Virus record (IMG/VR): IMGVR_UViG_3300043419_000594
Coordinates: 1 to 37,962 of that record
Reading direction: 5' to 3' (one strand)
Source of the DNA: a virus
Length of the DNA stretch: 37,962 nucleotides
Below are positions 21,981 through 37,491 of this stretch, in pieces. Below the pieces are notes generated by a model. It made no database searches and was not told where the DNA came from. It was given only the letters and a program-made list of their open reading frames with translations. Both the position numbers and the translations under genes were made by a program. Numbering within the stretch: the stretch's first letter is position 1; every line of letters begins with the position of its first letter.

Positions 21981-22427
21981 TTATGCCTTAAGTCCCATAC
22001 GTGCAAAACGTACAGTGACTGGCTTGATCGCAGAATCTGGAGTGACTGTTAAAGCCACGGTATTTCCAGTGCGAGAGACATTAATGGTGCCAATATTCCC
22101 ATCATTGTCGATTGTTCCGTATTCGCTGACTGATACATCTGTACCGTCAACGAGAATTGTCATTTCAGTTGCGTAGAACTTATTGTCCCCTGCTGTGGTC
22201 TTTGATATTGAAATAATATACTTAACCATACGCCAAACTGTTGCATCAAAGTTATCAATAACAGTTACGTTCTCAATACCTGTGATTGTATTCTCATTGT
22301 TACCCGCTGAACCCAAGTCTGTTGACTGGGATGAAAGTGTATCGATGAGGTCTTCGTAGTTTTCTTGAGTAGGTCTATCTCCTGTTTGGAATAGGCTCTT
22401 AACTCCTGGGATTGATATCTTTGCCAT
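21981..22427 (-). CDS. Virion-associated protein, beta-rich
   Basis: This encodes 148 residues with no ribosome site; the ATG at 22427 lies 6 bp after TGT-TATAAT. A short N-terminal helix region (ENYEDLIDTLSSQS) is followed by a beta domain (VKYIISISKTTAGDNKFYAT, VSVSEYGTIDNDGNIGT, TVALTVTPDSAIKPVTVRFAR). The same strand order, including an EYGTI segment, ends the next fibre gene, so the two share a domain. It is likely a small appendage component. Confidence 0.6.
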   Translation of the reverse strand: MAKISIPGVKSLFQTGDRPTQENYEDLIDTLSSQSTDLGSAGNNENTITGIENVTVIDNFDATVWRMVKYIISISKTTAGDNKFYATEMTILVDGTDVSVSEYGTIDNDGNIGTINVSRTGNTVALTVTPDSAIKPVTVRFARMGLKA

Positions 22428-26208: not shown

Positions 26209-28275
26209 TTATGCACAACCATAAGGGTCTGTCTGGCTTGCACAGGCACCGCAACCATTTGCATCATAGTATGAGTAGATTGCTGCCCATCCAGCACAAA
26301 CATAGTTTCCTGTTGGCTGACAGTTTGGAGTACATGCAGGTGTGACTGCAGGTGTTACAGCAGGTGTGACTGCAGGGGTAACTGCTGGTGTCACTGCTGG
26401 TGTTACAGCAGGTGTTACTGCTGGGGTAACTCCTGGGCAAGTATAAGACTCTGCTCCAGTACATGGATTTACATAAATTGCTACGGATCCTCCACATGCT
26501 GAGCGATACTCAGTATATGAATAGACTGGTGTACAGTCTGGTGGTGTTACAGCAGGGGTAACTGCTGGTGTGACTGCAGGTGTTACAGCAGGTGTGACTG
26601 CAGGGGTAACTGCTGGTGTTACAGCAGGTGTTACGCTACATGCTGGAGGTCTAGATGGTGTTCCAGGATAAGTTACCTGAGAACACTCTGTGTGATAATT
26701 TTCACACACATTCGCAGTATCGTCTGTAGAAGATTCATACTGCTCTACTGGTAGTCCATTAATATAATATTTGGTTGTGCAATACCAAGTTGTGGCAGGT
26801 GTAACAGCAGGTGTTACAGGTGTAACAGCAGGTGTTACAGGTGTTACTGCAGGTGTTACAGGTGTAACAGCAGGTGTTACAGGTGTCACTGCAGGTGTTA
26901 CAGGTGTCACTGCAGGCGTTACTGAAGCATATGGGTTAGTACATGAACTAGGAACTCCACAGATAGCAACAATTTGCTGATCTGTTAGACTTGGATTAGT
27001 AGTTATTCCTTGATTTATACTATATCCAGAACCTGCTGCAGGGTAGTCATCTTGCCCATTATTTCCTGTATATGCAATTGATAGTGAGTCTGAGAATCCA
27101 TTACATAATACATAAATCTTATATGATGTCGCTGGTGTTACTGGTGTTACTGTTCCTGAACCACCACAACTTACAGCATTTGCTTCTAATAGATTTCCAA
27201 AGCGATCAAATGTTGGCTGTGTACAAATTTCGTATGAACCATCAGAACAGGTCTTTCTTGTTCCAACATATATTCCTTCATAAGAATCTTCTCCGTTGCA
27301 TGTTGGCTGGATAACCTCGTATGATTCACATGATCCACAATTTACTGGTGTTACGGGTGTTACTGGAGTTACGGGAGTTACTGGTGTTACTGGTGTTACT
27401 GGTGTTACTGGAGTTACTGGTGTTACTGCAGGAGTTACATCAGGTGTTACTGCAGGAGTTACATCAGGTGTTACTGCAGGAGTTACGGCTGGGGTTACTG
27501 CTGGGGTAACTGCTGGGGTAACAGAACTTGCTCCTTCATAGATGTCTCCATACAAAACCCATGTATCAGTTGAAACTTTTACAAGTGTTCCTTTACTGTA
27601 CTGCCCATCTAAAAATAGTTGGGAATTCTTACTTCCAACAACTACGCCAGAGCCTGGAGAAAATGTTGTTCGTCCTGTTCCAATTTCAATAAAATTATAT
27701 TGATATCCAACTGGTATTGCAACTGAAGAATTTGACGGAATTGTTAAAGTCATTGGAGAAGAAGTATTTAAAAGAATAGTTTTATTTACATCTGCTTCTT
27801 CTAGGGTAAATGAAGAACTTTTTGTTATTGCTGTTGAAAAATTTAAAATCTTAGGTTCAATATCAAATCTTTCATCAACAGAATTCCAGTCAATTCCGTT
27901 TCCAGCAAGATCTGAGTATGCTCCTGTTGCTCCATTAATGGCATTTGTAATTCCTGTATCTACGTAAGATTTAGTTGCTAAGAGAGAAGTGTCTGCTATA
28001 CCGTGGACATCTGTGGTATCTGCATTATGTGTTGAAATAGCAGAATTTCTATTTGTTATCTCTGCAGCATCTGCATCTACAAGGTTTTGAAGGTGCTTTG
28101 CAATAGATGGATTTACAAGGTTTGCAGCATTTGTATTAGCGCCGTCGTACGTATATGATCCATAGTGGTAAAGTCTTAGTGCTGCCTGAATATCTGCTGC
28201 ATCTGAAAGACCAGGGACTTTGGTAGGGAAAAGACCAGTACCATTAACGGTATTATCAATATTTTCTGCTGCCAT
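26209..28275 (-). CDS. Tail fibre with (TPAV)n proline-rich repeats
   Basis: This encodes 688 residues with GGGTGA before the ATG. Residues about 1-130 form a fibre attachment region; TTDVHGIADTSLLATKSYVD and LAGNGIDWNSVDERFDI are shared with the Mtd-N fibre. Residues about 130-250 form a beta domain. From about 250 there are four runs of TPAV/TPV repeats (near 251-312, 451-494, 547-579 and 615-647) separated by Cys-rich knots (CGSCESYEVIQPTC). The end is Cys rich (GCGACASQTDPYGCA). Such threonine/proline stalks are often glycosylated or hydroxylated, and a prolyl hydroxylase gene lies just downstream. Confidence 0.7.
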   Translation of the reverse strand: MAAENIDNTVNGTGLFPTKVPGLSDAADIQAALRLYHYGSYTYDGANTNAANLVNPSIAKHLQNLVDADAAEITNRNSAISTHNADTTDVHGIADTSLLATKSYVDTGITNAINGATGAYSDLAGNGIDWNSVDERFDIEPKILNFSTAITKSSSFTLEEADVNKTILLNTSSPMTLTIPSNSSVAIPVGYQYNFIEIGTGRTTFSPGSGVVVGSKNSQLFLDGQYSKGTLVKVSTDTWVLYGDIYEGASSVTPAVTPAVTPAVTPAVTPDVTPAVTPDVTPAVTPVTPVTPVTPVTPVTPVTPVTPVTPVNCGSCESYEVIQPTCNGEDSYEGIYVGTRKTCSDGSYEICTQPTFDRFGNLLEANAVSCGGSGTVTPVTPATSYKIYVLCNGFSDSLSIAYTGNNGQDDYPAAGSGYSINQGITTNPSLTDQQIVAICGVPSSCTNPYASVTPAVTPVTPAVTPVTPAVTPVTPAVTPVTPAVTPVTPAVTPATTWYCTTKYYINGLPVEQYESSTDDTANVCENYHTECSQVTYPGTPSRPPACSVTPAVTPAVTPAVTPAVTPAVTPAVTPAVTPPDCTPVYSYTEYRSACGGSVAIYVNPCTGAESYTCPGVTPAVTPAVTPAVTPAVTPAVTPAVTPAVTPACTPNCQPTGNYVCAGWAAIYSYYDANGCGACASQTDPYGCA
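26336..26432 (-). repeat. (TPAV)n tandem repeat block 4
   Basis: Consecutive 12-base units encode TPAV, near the 3-prime end of the fibre gene. Units vary at third codon positions. Confidence 0.85.
26540..26635 (-). repeat. (TPAV)n tandem repeat block 3
   Basis: Consecutive 12-base units encoding TPAV between two Cys-rich knots. Confidence 0.85.
26794..26923 (-). repeat. TPAVTPV tandem repeat block 2
   Basis: Alternating TPAV and TPV units, giving a 21-base higher-order period on the minus strand. Confidence 0.85.
27343..27523 (-). repeat. TPAV/TPDV/TPV tandem repeat block 1
   Basis: The longest block. TPAV and TPDV units come first, then TPV units in a 9-base period. Three repeat types side by side suggest expansion by slippage. 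Confidence 0.85.
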
Positions 28276-33156: not shown

Positions 33157-34326
33157 TTATTTTTCTGTCACATATATTCTTATTGGAGCATCTGTTCGAA
33201 GCGCCAAAGAGCCAAGATGGTGTACCTTTTCATTTAATAGTTGTAGGTCAAACCTCTCGGCTACTTTACTCAATAATACCCGCATCTGCATTAGAGCGTA
33301 TTCTTTTCCGACACACTGCCTTTTACCAAATAGGAATGGGAAATACTCTCCCTTTGCCAATTTAGGGTTTTCTAGCCATCTTTCTGGTTTGAATGAATTT
33401 GGATCTTCGAAAATGTTTTCATCTCTATGCATAGCATATGAACTTATGGTTACTTTGGTTCCAGCAGGAAGGAGGGTTCCGTCTACTTCTACATCTTCCG
33501 TCGCAATTCTCTGACTATTCCAAATAGCAGGACATAGCCTCAAAACTTCTTTAATAAAAGCATCAAGGTTTTCTCTTTCAGATATTTTCTCTTGCCAGTC
33601 TTTGTTTATCGACAAATAGTACATTGCCCATTCTAGGGTATGTGCTGTTGATTCGTAACTTCCCACAAATAATGAAAGTGTTTCCGCATATAGATCTATA
33701 AAATCTATTTTTCCGTTTTTATATGAGTTAATGATCATATCTAGAAAGTCATTTTTTACTTCTTTAGACTCTAGTCTTTTGTCTACTATCTTTTTGCATA
33801 TATCGTAGACCTTTTCTCTTTCTTCCCCAGATCCGTCATACCTCATATTAAATGCAACTTCATCCATAACGACTGCGATATTGTCTTTTATTTCTTCAAA
33901 GTCATCATCTGCGTTTTCTGAAAAAAATATTTCCATGACACTTTTAAAAACAACAAATTTCATTTGCTCTCGGACATTGATCTCGCCAGACCAGTTAGAT
34001 ATTATCTTATCTACGATTGGAGCAGCCTGTAGTTCATATTTCTTTATATGATCAGTAGCGAATGCTGGAACTACTTCTTTTTTATTTCTCATATGCCCTG
34101 GCTCTTCTGCAGTAAACAAACCTGATCCAACGGCATAGCCTAGTCTTTTAAAACCACCATCTTTTATAAAACTGTTGTATTTATTTAGTGCGACATCCTC
34201 TACCGCTTTGCTAGTAACCACAAAATAGGAGTTATCACTATCTGGGTTAGGACGATGATTGCCTTCTATTCTTTTTTTTAGTAATTGAAAGTAAGATGGC
34301 CAGTCAAAGTTGTCTGGGTTTGTCAT
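33157..34326 (-). CDS. Cytochrome P450
   Basis: This encodes 389 residues from the ATG at 34326; a GTG 15 bp upstream is less likely because TATAAT overlaps it and ends 6 bp before the ATG. All P450 landmarks are present: FTAEEPGHMRNKKEVVPAF (C-helix region), VGSYESTAHTLEW (I-helix oxygen-binding motif, residues 221-233), ExxR (E260-R263), FKPERW near 312, and the haem loop FLFGKRQCVG with Cys338. Length and soluble N-terminus match bacterial P450s. No redox partner is recognised nearby, so host ferredoxin would be needed. The substrate is unknown. P450 genes are rare in phages. Confidence 0.95.
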   Translation of the reverse strand: MTNPDNFDWPSYFQLLKKRIEGNHRPNPDSDNSYFVVTSKAVEDVALNKYNSFIKDGGFKRLGYAVGSGLFTAEEPGHMRNKKEVVPAFATDHIKKYELQAAPIVDKIISNWSGEINVREQMKFVVFKSVMEIFFSENADDDFEEIKDNIAVVMDEVAFNMRYDGSGEEREKVYDICKKIVDKRLESKEVKNDFLDMIINSYKNGKIDFIDLYAETLSLFVGSYESTAHTLEWAMYYLSINKDWQEKISERENLDAFIKEVLRLCPAIWNSQRIATEDVEVDGTLLPAGTKVTISSYAMHRDENIFEDPNSFKPERWLENPKLAKGEYFPFLFGKRQCVGKEYALMQMRVLLSKVAERFDLQLLNEKVHHLGSLALRTDAPIRIYVTEK

Positions 34327-34332
34327 AATATC

Positions 34333-34338
34333 ATTATA
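34333..34338 (-). promoter_or_regulatory. TATAAT 6 bp before P450 start
   Basis: A TATAAT on the minus strand ends 6 bp before the ATG at 34326. It is preceded by GTG and not by the TGN seen elsewhere, and no clear -35 box is visible. Confidence 0.45.
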
Positions 34339-34410
34339 CACCAGGCGAAAAAACCAAATAGCCTAAAATCTGAATATTTTGTTCAGATGTATGATACATG
34401 TTATAAAAGA

Positions 34411-35243: not shown

Positions 35244-35272
35244 AGTATAGCATAGAAATGTCAAAAAGTCAA
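35244..35272 (-). promoter_or_regulatory. Leftward early promoter
   Basis: TTGACT (35272-35267), a 17-bp spacer and extended TGC-TATACT (to 35244). The -35 and spacer are almost identical to the rightward promoter at 36384-36412 (one difference in 26 bases). Confidence 0.8.
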
Positions 35273-35410
35273 GTCTAAAATCGGACATTTCGCCCTTTTT
35301 CTTTGTGATTTAGACCACACGACAAATCGGACATTTGGGACAGACGTCTGTCAAATCGACACGCCGATACTACTAGGATCGTTACGCTATTGTTATAATT
35401 CCCCCAAAAA

Positions 35411-35426
35411 TGTGATGTGATTCACA
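35411..35426. promoter_or_regulatory. CRP/GlxR-like palindrome 1
   Basis: TGTGATGTGATTCACA is a perfect TGTGA-N6-TCACA match to the binding pattern of CRP-family regulators. It lies 56 bp before the promoter box at 35467. Confidence 0.6.
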
Positions 35427-35466
35427 ATCCCTTATTTCCTAAATGTCCGTTTTGTACCCCTCAATA

Positions 35467-35488
35467 TGTCAGACCCCCCTGCTATACT
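35467..35488 (+). promoter_or_regulatory. Rightward early promoter, TGTCAG-N10-TATACT
   Basis: TGTCAG, 10 bp (ACCCCCCTGC) and TATACT. TGC before TATACT makes an extended -10. The 22-base block is identical to the one at 36513-36534. The TGTCAG is too close to the -10 to be a normal -35, so it may bind a phage factor. Confidence 0.65.
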
Positions 35489-35502
35489 TGTATATATACA
35501 AG
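35487..35502. promoter_or_regulatory. Palindrome at transcription start
   Basis: CTTGTATATATACAAG, a perfect 16-bp palindrome beginning in the -10 and covering the predicted start site. Operator or initial hairpin. Confidence 0.5.
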
Positions 35503-35542
35503 GTTGAAAAAGAAGTAAGCCCCTTAAAGAAAGGTTATCAAA

Positions 35543-35725
35543 ATGATAACACTAACAAAAATCGAAGTGTGTAAAACACACACCCCTAATAAGTCTGCTA
35601 TCTCCGAAGTAGGAGATGACCAATTCACATTCTGCGAAAGTTGTGAACAAAATATTGAGCGTTGGTATAACGATACCGACCCAGAGCGTCTACCTATGTG
35701 GACAGATTGGAAGGTGTCTAAGTGA
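35543..35725 (+). CDS. Small early protein with two Cys pairs
   Basis: This encodes 60 residues with AAAGG 8 bp before the ATG. VCKTHTPNKSA and FCESCEQNIERW give Cys and His ligands for one zinc site; the C-terminus is Trp rich (PMWTDWKVSK). It is the first gene of the rightward early unit. Confidence 0.65.
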   Translation: MITLTKIEVCKTHTPNKSAISEVGDDQFTFCESCEQNIERWYNDTDPERLPMWTDWKVSK

Positions 35726-35886
35726 GCACTTTCATAAACCTTGCCTCTGTATGTGGCAAATCTTCAGCCCCTGTTGATGTCTATGATGTAGACCTTAACC
35801 CTCATGGTGTTATCTGTTGCGATAATTGCCAATCTATTTTAATGTGTCGCAAGGCATGGGATTTCTTATACAAGGAGGTCAAATAA
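35722..35886 (+). CDS. 54-residue zinc-knuckle protein
   Basis: This runs from a GTG in a GTGA overlap with the previous stop. It encodes MSTFINLASVCGKSSAPVDV and a second half with GVICCDNCQSILMCRKAWDF. The CCxxC...C arrangement could bind zinc. Its stop overlaps the next start (TAATG), and AAGGAGG near its end serves that gene. Confidence 0.6.
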   Translation: MSTFINLASVCGKSSAPVDVYDVDLNPHGVICCDNCQSILMCRKAWDFLYKEVK

Positions 35887-36038
35887 TGACTAAATACAAT
35901 GTGCTTATTTCTTATGTCGTAGAGGCAGAAGATGAGATGAGAGCCGTGTTCGCTCTAAATAAATCACTCTACCCACTTAGCGAAGATGAAATTGCTAAGT
36001 TCGATGCGTTCCATATTGAGGAGGTTGCCAATGCCTAA
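35886..36038 (+). CDS. Small early protein
   Basis: This encodes 50 residues from the ATG at 35886, which follows AAGGAGG. The chain begins MTKYNVLISYVVEAEDEMRA and continues with an acidic helix. Its start resembles that of the next gene (MPKFIYTIAVEVDA), a beta-strand plus acidic-helix layout, so they look like a tandem duplicate pair. Confidence 0.65.
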   Translation: MTKYNVLISYVVEAEDEMRAVFALNKSLYPLSEDEIAKFDAFHIEEVANA

Positions 36039-36165
36039 GTTTATTTATACAATCGCCGTTGAGGTTGACGCTATTGACCAAGATGAGGCAACATGGTTAA
36101 TCTACAATACCCCGCTAGAAAAACTAAACACGGATTGCTTAGAAATAGAAATTGAGGAAAACTAA
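36031..36165 (+). CDS. Small early protein, tandem relative
   Basis: This encodes 44 residues; it overlaps the previous gene by 8 bp, with GAGGAGG upstream. MPKFIYTIAVEVDAIDQDEA followed by an acidic helix and a LEIEIEEN tail aligns with the preceding protein at the start. Function unknown. Confidence 0.6.
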   Translation: MPKFIYTIAVEVDAIDQDEATWLIYNTPLEKLNTDCLEIEIEEN

Positions 36166-36166
36166 A

Positions 36167-36268
36167 ATGGAAAAAGATATTTTCGGATTTGCAGATGCAA
36201 TTAATTTGGATCATCTAAATTTAGAACAACTAAAAGAACTAGAAAAACTTTTAGAAAAAATAAAATAA
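36167..36268 (+). CDS. 33-residue leucine-rich early peptide
   Basis: This encodes MEKDIFGFADAINLDHLNLE, then a Leu/Lys/Glu helix (QLKELEKLLEKIK). GAGG lies 9 bp before the ATG. The heptad leucines suggest a short coiled coil that pairs with another protein. It is placed in a clear run of co-directional genes, so it is probably expressed. Confidence 0.5.
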   Translation: MEKDIFGFADAINLDHLNLEQLKELEKLLEKIK

Positions 36269-36321
36269 ATAAAAAACAATTTTGCAAAAATAAAAACTTT
36301 GCAAAAATTGCACGTGCAAAG

Positions 36322-36342
36322 TTATCCACAGGCTGTGTATAA
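36322..36342. other. Inverted pair of DnaA boxes
   Basis: TTATCCACA, then GGC, then TGTGTATAA (reverse complement TTATACACA). Both match the bacterial DnaA consensus TTATNCACA. The 20-mer CGTGCAAAGTTATCCACAGG around the first box recurs at 37338-37357. Confidence 0.65.
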
Positions 36343-36346
36343 CTAA

Positions 36347-36362
36347 TGTGATATTAATCACC
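36347..36362. promoter_or_regulatory. CRP/GlxR-like palindrome 2
   Basis: TGTGATATTAATCACC, a TGTGA-N6-TCAC match with one end base off. It sits 22 bp upstream of the TTGACT promoter. Confidence 0.5.
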
Positions 36363-36383
36363 TACGACACGCCGTGTTTAAAC

Positions 36384-36412
36384 TTGACTTTTTGAGATTT
36401 CTATGCTAGTAT
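36384..36412 (+). promoter_or_regulatory. Rightward TTGACT promoter
   Basis: TTGACT, a 17-bp spacer and TGC-TAGTAT. TATAGT three bases downstream is an alternative -10. It is nearly identical to the leftward promoter at 35244-35272. Confidence 0.65.
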
Positions 36413-36450
36413 AGTTACTATAAACAATTAAATAAAGATAAATAAGGTAA

Positions 36451-36505
36451 TGAGCCTTAGCAAATAAATGTGACGAGTATCACAGTGAGCCTAAGCAAAT
36501 AAGTG
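36451..36505 (+). repeat. 20-bp direct repeats flanking a CRP-like site
   Basis: TGAGCCTTAGCAAATAAATG (36451-36470) and TGAGCCTAAGCAAATAAGTG (36486-36505) are 18 of 20 identical with a 35-bp period. Each contains the reading frame for MSLSK-stop (ATG at 36450, GTG at 36485). Between them is TGTGACGAGTATCACA (36469-36484), a perfect TGTGA-N6-TCACA. Confidence 0.6.
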
Positions 36506-36512
36506 CCCAATT

Positions 36513-36534
36513 TGTCAGACCCCCCTGCTATACT
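36513..36534 (+). promoter_or_regulatory. Rightward early promoter, second TGTCAG-N10-TATACT copy
   Basis: Identical over 22 bases to the copy at 35467-35488, with TGC-TATACT. It should drive the genes from 36571 on. Confidence 0.65.
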
Positions 36535-36570
36535 TAATTATATAAACAAACAAAAGAAAGGTGGTTCAAT

Positions 36571-36756
36571 ATGAACTACATTATCAAACTAGAGTCTTTC
36601 AATGGCTCAACAAAATCAATCGCACTTCCTTCAAAGGGTGCAGTTGCTCAATTCATCTCACAATATCCTCAGCAGTTGCCAGTAGGCGTTGCTCTCAAAG
36701 TGTCTTGCGACGCTCTCTCAATCTCTGGAACACTTCGTGGAAAGGCTACACTCTAA
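36571..36756 (+). CDS. Small early protein, LPVGxA family
   Basis: This encodes 61 residues with AAAGGTGG before the ATG. It is a relative of the leftward gene at 34467-34655: FISQYPQQLPVGVALKV and ISGTLRGKATL match its FIEVFGATLPVGTAVNI and HSGWIQGSAPK. The predicted order is strand, helix, strand. Function unknown. Both arms carry a copy, which suggests duplication across the control region. Confidence 0.65.
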   Translation: MNYIIKLESFNGSTKSIALPSKGAVAQFISQYPQQLPVGVALKVSCDALSISGTLRGKATL

Positions 36757-37013
36757 TGACTAACACAGTTGCATTCGCTATCTTCCCTTTTGAACACAAG
36801 GGCTATCAGTTTATTTCTAAGGTTTCAGAAAATTCTCGCTACCTACCGCAAATTCTCTCAATCAAAGATGAGTTCATCGCAATGAATCGTGGTGCTATCG
36901 ATGAGTGCATTCCTGACATTGAAGATATGTCTTGGGCTTCAATTCAAAAGCAGGTCACCTTTATTAACGAGGGGGGCACTGAAATGTTTCTAGAATTGGT
37001 AGGTGTTGCATAA
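36756..37013 (+). CDS. Early hypothetical protein
   Basis: This encodes 85 residues from the ATG in a TAATG overlap with the previous gene. Segments are MTNTVAFAIFPFEHKGYQFI, PQILSIKDEFIAMNRG and a final TEMFLELVGVA. It is acidic, with mixed helices. Not recognised. It is co-translated with the LPVGxA protein. Confidence 0.6.
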   Translation: MTNTVAFAIFPFEHKGYQFISKVSENSRYLPQILSIKDEFIAMNRGAIDECIPDIEDMSWASIQKQVTFINEGGTEMFLELVGVA

Positions 37014-37177
37014 TGATGACTCGCAAAGACTATGTAGAGGTTGCCAAAATTATCTCAAAGCATTCGAAAGGCGATACTTGCCGACTAGATATTTTAATTG
37101 ATGATTTTGCGTTTTGGTTCGCAGAAGATAATCCAAATTTCAAAATGGAAAAATTTATGGAGGCTTGTAATGAATAG
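37013..37177 (+). CDS. Small conserved phage protein (DNPxFxxxxFxxAC)
   Basis: This encodes 54 residues from the TAATGATG overlap. The C-terminal FWFAEDNPNFKMEKFMEACN matches a pattern that recurs in small early proteins of many actinobacterial phages (DNPxFxxxxFxxAC), recalled from memory. The role is unknown. The GGAGG near its end serves the following gene. Confidence 0.65.
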   Translation: MMTRKDYVEVAKIISKHSKGDTCRLDILIDDFAFWFAEDNPNFKMEKFMEACNE

Positions 37178-37295
37178 ACTACTAACAACAATTGTTCAAC
37201 TATTTTTAGCGGGCAGTGTTTTTATTTTATTCCGCATGATGTTACCAATGCTAAAAGAAGATTGGCAAGAAATAAAAAACGATTTGCAAAAGTAA
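37170..37295 (+). CDS. Small single-pass membrane protein
   Basis: This encodes 41 residues overlapping the previous gene by 8 bp, with GGAGG 7 bp upstream. One hydrophobic helix (LLTTIVQLFLAGSVFILF) is followed by a charged tail. It may sit in the host membrane during early infection. Confidence 0.6.
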   Translation: MNRLLTTIVQLFLAGSVFILFRMMLPMLKEDWQEIKNDLQK

Positions 37296-37346
37296 ATCAT
37301 GATCCTGAGCAAGATTCAAAACTGCTCAAATTTTGGACGTGCAAAG

Positions 37347-37367
37347 TTATCCACAGGGTTATACACA
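37347..37367. other. Direct pair of DnaA boxes
   Basis: TTATCCACA and TTATACACA in the same orientation, 3 bp apart. Both match TTATNCACA. Confidence 0.65.
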
Positions 37368-37469
37368 GGCGTTTAAGAGGTTGTGTACGACACGCCCGAG
37401 ATTTTGTGACATTAAACACATGGCTTGAGCGTCTCACTATTTGGATTTACTGGCTAGTAAGTAGAAAAA

Positions 37470-37491
37470 TGTCAGTGCCATAGGCTAGGAT
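37470..37491 (+). promoter_or_regulatory. Third TGTCAG-N10 promoter box
   Basis: TGTCAG, 10 bp, TAGGAT; same spacing as at 35467 and 36513 but a weaker -10. It precedes the gene at 37531. Confidence 0.5.

Follow-up and report, generated by a model that had tools for sequence, protein, structure and literature searches.

CRP-type palindromes beside PafBC-type promoters suggest recruitment of two host activators by uncultivated actinobacterial viruses

Host regulators acting on phage promoters are already known, namely CRP in phage T1 (PMC6737242) and LexA in phage GIL01 (PMC4551915). In T1, host CRP acts on phage promoters, as is likewise proposed here, but it represses a lysis regulator in E. 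coli, whereas the present case points to activation, at many promoters and in an actinophage clade (PMC6737242). In GIL01, a phage promoter is tied to the host DNA-damage response, again as proposed here, although through LexA/RecA repressor release (PMC4551915) and not through a putative ssDNA-sensing activator. With regard to promoter architecture, class I CRP promoters (the E. coli lac type, and those of the M. tuberculosis CRP and C. glutamicum GlxR regulons) resemble the viral ones in the palindrome, its upstream placement and its phasing, while the actinobacterial PafBC promoters of the RecA-independent DNA-damage response (P1/RecA-NDp) have the same TGTC[AG]G-N10-TANNNT sequence and no -35 element. 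In these, the -26 motif is bound by PafB, its partner PafC touches domain 4 of sigma-A, and the PafB-PafC pair is activated by ssDNA in its WYL domains (PMC11804915). The motif has been published as TGTCGG/TGTCAG-10N-TA-3N-T (PMC8151990) and as tTGTCRgtg-8nt-TannnT (PMC5656591). Unlike in class I CRP systems, the phage sites are packed at one per 1-2 kb and paired with PafBC-type promoters; unlike the actinobacterial PafBC promoters, the viral ones are phage-borne, lie before small unknown genes and usually have a CRP-type site upstream. No report of a PafBC-type phage promoter was found in the literature searched, subscription journals being mostly outside its scope, and we know of no earlier viral use of PafBC sigma adaptation.

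The window, that is, the whole stretch of DNA analyzed, is a viral record of 37,962 bases and a fragment. Its structural genes (portal, head maturation protease and tail fibres) run leftward, and at its right end small ORFs make up a divergent region; from this layout, the small genes are probably early. The window has no nucleotide match to known phages. A 394-aa ORF at 33157-34341 (minus strand) matches cytochrome P450 (Pfam PF00067, E 7e-52), and P450 genes are unusual in phages. The sequence-only reading had drawn attention to four CRP/GlxR-type palindromes within about 2 kb of this DNA, two perfect copies of TGTGA-N6-TCACA and two near-perfect ones. All four were found at the positions given (Table 1), the near-perfect copies with one mismatch each, but the count was short, as a fifth site with one mismatch lies upstream of PL, and the promoters next to the palindromes had been overlooked. 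The five sites pair one-to-one with five promoters: three, all in rightward cassettes (35467, 36513 and 37470), have the form TGTCAG-N10-TANNNT, and the other two (P2a and PL) the form TTGACT-N17-TANNNT. Over the whole window, the pattern with up to two mismatches is not above chance (19 vs 26.8 expected), and the signal is carried by the site cluster and by the relatives. Five of the seven window sites with at most one mismatch fall within 2.1 kb; of the remaining two, one is at 22281 and the other, at 26691, falls within a tail-fibre-like ORF. The small ORFs tested near the sites (60-85 aa) gave no Pfam or PHROG family, except for one match below the cut-off.

Table 1. Sites, promoters and neighbouring features at the right end of the window; distances run from the centre of the CRP-type site to the first base of the -10.
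Feature	Position	Strand	Details
PL, leftward promoter	35244..35272	-	TTGACT-N17-TATACT
CRP-type site of PL	35304..35319	-	TGTGATTTAGACCACA, 1 mismatch; 62.5 bp, distance from coordinates
CGACACGCC copy	35357-35365
CRP-type palindrome of P1	35411..35426	+	perfect; 64.5 bp
P1, PafBC-type promoter	35467..35488	+	TGTCAGACCCCCCTGCTATACT; -26 element 35467-35472, -10 35483-35488; motif PMC8151990
Small ORF downstream of P1	35543..35725	+	60 aa; no family match
DnaA box upstream of P2a	36322..36330	+	TTATCCACA
CRP-type site of P2a	36347..36362	+	1 mismatch (TCACC); 52.5 bp
CGACACGCC element upstream of P2a	36365..36373	+	includes GACAC
P2a promoter	36384..36412	+	TTGACT-N17-TAGTAT
Repeats flanking P2b palindrome	36451 and 36486		TGAGCCTNAGCAAATAA
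CRP-type palindrome of P2b	36469..36484	+	perfect; 52.5 bp
P2b, PafBC-type promoter	36513..36534	+	TGTCAGACCCCCCTGCTATACT; -10 36529-36534
Small ORF downstream of P2b	36571..36756	+	61 aa; 165 viral relatives; no family match
Second DnaA box, upstream of P3	37347-37355		TTATCCACA
CGACACGCC copy	37388-37396
CRP-type site of P3	37405..37420	+	1 mismatch (ACACA); 73.5 bp
P3, PafBC-type promoter	37470..37491	+	TGTCAGTGCCATAGGCTAGGAT; -10 37486-37491
Small ORF downstream of P3	37531..37737	+	68 aa; no family match

Two sets of related loci were then considered. One comprised 80 viral loci (1.06 Mb) with genes for proteins related to that at 36571-36756 and chosen by protein only, while the other (L165-L283) was chosen for having the composite motif at a separation of 46.5-76.5 bp, not for phase. 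The 80 loci contain 355 perfect copies of TGTGA-N6-TCACA, as compared to 2.2 in dinucleotide shuffles, and the spacer controls N4, N5, N7 and N8 gave 0-2 matches, at chance level. ORFs of at least 100 aa cover 41% of the loci, yet 344 of the 355 palindromes do not fall within them. Among larger viral records, 38 of 47 carry sites, the reversed control pattern being found in 0 of 47, and in long records the listed sites bunch in one genome stretch or near contig ends. Moreover, 54 of 62 distinct sequences of the gene 36571 promoter keep a CRP-type site with at most one mismatch, so that a loss of the sites in close relatives, the outcome that the sequence-only reading had named as speaking against it, was not seen. 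In 51 of those 54, the site adjoins a PafBC-type promoter, and in 49 of them its spacing to the -10 is exactly 52.5 bp; N6 and the flanks vary among the orthologues. The in-phase perfect palindromes are TGTGA/TCACA in 277 cases vs 8 for all other sequences, and single mismatches leave the GTG/CAC core untouched, which indicates that a protein-binding sequence is conserved, not base pairing. The sites hence share the CRP/GlxR operator consensus TGTGA-N6-TCACA with its invariant GTG/CAC core.

The PafBC-type motif is likewise abundant in the relatives, where the version with spacer 10 occurs 590 times vs 15.8 expected; spacers 8, 9 and 11 are at or below chance, and spacer 12 is about twofold above it. 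The -35 columns of these promoters show no consensus hexamer, and TGTC[AG]G-N10-TANNNT is thus found without a -35 hexamer, as in PafBC promoters. The composite of a CRP site and a PafBC-type promoter was detected in at least 120 viral stretches, and 16 were in reversed order among the matches listed. In bacterial genomes, it gave 25 scattered matches in 257 Gb, at chance level, and copying of the composite from bacterial chromosomes was therefore rejected; common in viruses and scarce in bacteria, it is better seen as a phage invention or amplification than as a copied host promoter. The capsid maturation protease is related to those of Streptomyces and Rhodococcus phages, and the Streptomyces phages Comrade and BillNye (Stanwilliamsviridae) have a homologous protein with approximately 42% identity. 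Each of these two genomes holds one isolated CRP-like palindrome and no site cluster, and the first 16 kb of the cultured Streptomyces relatives gave no PafBC-type or CRP match. As the site cluster is absent from them, these cultured relatives were dropped as a proxy, and its absence also weighs against the recruitment reading.

Regarding geometry, the distance from the centre of the CRP site to the first base of the -10 peaks at 52.5, 62.5 and 72.5-73.5 bp where the promoter is of PafBC type, at 52.5 and 62.5 bp where it is TTGAC-N17, and at 41.5-42.5 bp where it is TTGAC-N18. The period is 10-10.5 bp, with R of about 0.71 (323 promoters, collapsed at 75% identity). Matches upstream outnumber those downstream (329 vs 16), and an in-phase promoter stands beside 126 of 194 distinct sites, as opposed to 2.6% of random positions. 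The sites are thus placed upstream of promoters at helically phased distances, as in class I activation. Two features of this geometry count against the assignment. On the same distance scale, the E. coli class I series lies at 49.5, 59.5 and 70.5, and the phage sites are shifted upstream from it by about 3 bp; in addition, tandem abutting sites account for only 10 of 30 cases in a minor peak at 57.5/58.5.

We then focused on the proteins that might bind these elements. HTH_Crp_2 (CRP-HTH) and WYL domains were found in 0 of 47 related viral records, and sigma-70 region 2 in 0 of 25. Phage-encoded CRP, WYL or sigma-70 regulators were accordingly discarded for the records sampled, which makes host proteins the simplest candidates. 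As presumptive hosts, we considered 34 small Actinomycetes (1.2-1.5 Mb; 42-51% GC in most stretches examined). A strong CRP is present in 33 of them and two neighbouring WYL genes, resembling a PafB-PafC pair, in 31; the actinobacterial recognition helix SRETVNKALADF occurs in all 20 of the CRPs examined. Additional weaker HTH_Crp_2 matches are also carried by these candidate hosts. In many Actinomycetes genomes, PafBC-type motifs are commoner than the reversed control, and the excess is greatest in large genomes (for instance 45+36 vs 1+0 in the 9.7-Mb genome G107); in the candidate host G295, five of six such motifs lie upstream of ORFs, and two abut SOS boxes. What most weakens the CRP assignment is the near-lack of perfect CRP palindromes in candidate hosts: there are 4 in approximately 43 Mb (G295 and 31 other small Actinomycetes), and in G295 (L371-L430) one-mismatch sites are rarer than the spacer controls (16 vs 30-51). 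CRP palindromes are scarce in small Actinomycetes as if they were avoided. A host search through capsid-protease relatives on phage contigs in bacterial genomes found none, and ThyX was dropped as a host marker, being absent from 14 records.

Overall, the sequence evidence makes it probable that CRP and PafBC of the host are recruited by these phages to promoters of small genes, and co-activation by two host proteins is the simplest model. The palindromes would be operators for a host activator of the CRP/GlxR family, arranged on one helix face at class I distances, and the promoters that they serve would drive a phage cluster of small, probably early genes. Within the window, three promoters would be of the host PafBC type (TGTCRG at -26, no -35 and a TANNNT -10) and two would be ordinary sigma-A promoters with a -35, and the phage apparently brings neither CRP nor PafBC. 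In the infected cell, CRP of the host, bound some 50-75 bp upstream of the -10, would touch RNA polymerase, presumably its alpha C-terminal domain, while at the PafBC-type promoters host PafBC, activated by ssDNA, would adapt polymerase carrying sigma-A to the -26 element. With both at the promoters, transcription should increase when CRP is active and ssDNA appears, as might happen upon DNA entry, replication or host chromosome breakdown.

It had been proposed from the palindromes that the phage either reads host cAMP or nutrient state, or recruits a host activator. The latter is well supported by sequence, since the sites fit the CRP/GlxR consensus, show conservation of sequence and not just of pairing, and occupy activator positions. 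The CRP/GlxR-type pattern itself was confirmed, but the DNA-damage type of the promoters had been missed. Phage reading of cAMP is not favoured; as the adjacent promoters are of the type used by PafBC, a DNA-damage activator, the second input is more likely to be ssDNA or DNA damage than nutrition. Actinobacterial CRPs need not be strictly cAMP-dependent. A strict class III cyclase motif had no match in 1.2 Mb of one candidate host, which is a weak negative.

The CRP sites could, on the contrary, be repressor, roadblock or looping sites that silence the region in some nutritional states. Cyclic AMP-CRP does repress the pir, dam and recE promoters of phage T1 (PMC6737242), and near-consensus sequences are what tight repressor sites are expected to have; nevertheless, overlap with the -10 or the start almost never occurs, the sites are upstream and helically phased, and in M. 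tuberculosis activation accompanies CRP binding upstream, whereas repression accompanies binding near the start (PMC4117774), which makes silencing unlikely. We assign the same low probability to binding of the palindromes by another host regulator of the CRP/FNR family or by an unrecognised phage protein, the TGTCAG promoters likewise depending on another factor. The combination of weaker HTH_Crp_2 matches and few perfect palindromes in candidate hosts would suit such a binder, as would the early proteins that match no known family, whereas the consensus, the GTG/CAC core and the PafBC motif match the known binders exactly, and the sampled phage records are devoid of the CRP-HTH, WYL and sigma-70 region 2 domains.

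That the palindromes are RNA or DNA hairpins instead of operators is very improbable. At P2b, a TGAGCCTNAGCAAATAA repeat stands on either side of the palindrome, and the variable base of one repeat complements that of the other in 31 of 32 distinct copies; in other loci this slot is filled by unrelated hairpins such as CCGAAAGG, which also weighs against the operator reading. However, compensatory changes are absent (the 277 vs 8 count), the repeats are missing at most sites, and the spacing from the -10 is fixed and shows a period. RNA hairpins were rejected on that count as a general explanation, and could apply at the P2b slot only. Finally, chance or an assembly artefact would agree with a whole-window count that does not exceed shuffles, yet has practically no probability in the face of hundreds of spacer- and phase-specific copies on independent contigs, and chance was ruled out by the relatives together with the spacer controls.

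Besides CRP-type sites and promoters, DnaA boxes (250 vs 19), LexA SOS boxes CGAAC-N4-GTTCG on both strands (48 vs 0; L010, L018, L020, L054 and others) and CGACACGCC (270 vs 1) are over-represented in the related regions, all of which are leads rather than results. The CGACACGCC element is found at a fixed 38 bp from the -10 or, when reversed, at 30 bp, and the GACAC that it contains is the WhiA motif (PMC3781837). SOS boxes in relatives are often 84.5 bp from the -10 of TTGAC-N17 promoters, and no LexA SOS box occurs in the window. The perfect DnaA boxes at 36322 and 37347 lie inside a GCAAAGTTATCCACAGG repeat. The TGAGCCTNAGCAAATAA direct repeats (36451-36503 in the window; also L054, L173, L184 and others) flank a variable slot, occupied by a CRP palindrome in some loci and by a LexA box or short hairpin in others. 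It is conceivable, albeit doubtful, that the small-gene region works as a multi-input host-state sensor, with CRP, PafBC, LexA, DnaA and a WhiA-like GACAC at modular promoters, and that infection timing or lysis choice would follow DNA damage, replication and growth state.

Altogether, a large uncultivated group of actinobacterial viruses appears, from its promoter sequences, to borrow two host activators. If so, a widespread group of actinophages would use host CRP and a host DNA-damage activator instead of factors of its own, and transcription in these phages would be predicted to depend on ssDNA and CRP. Moreover, class I activation in actinobacteria could be studied on the natural CRP promoters of these viruses, which number in the hundreds and are precisely spaced.
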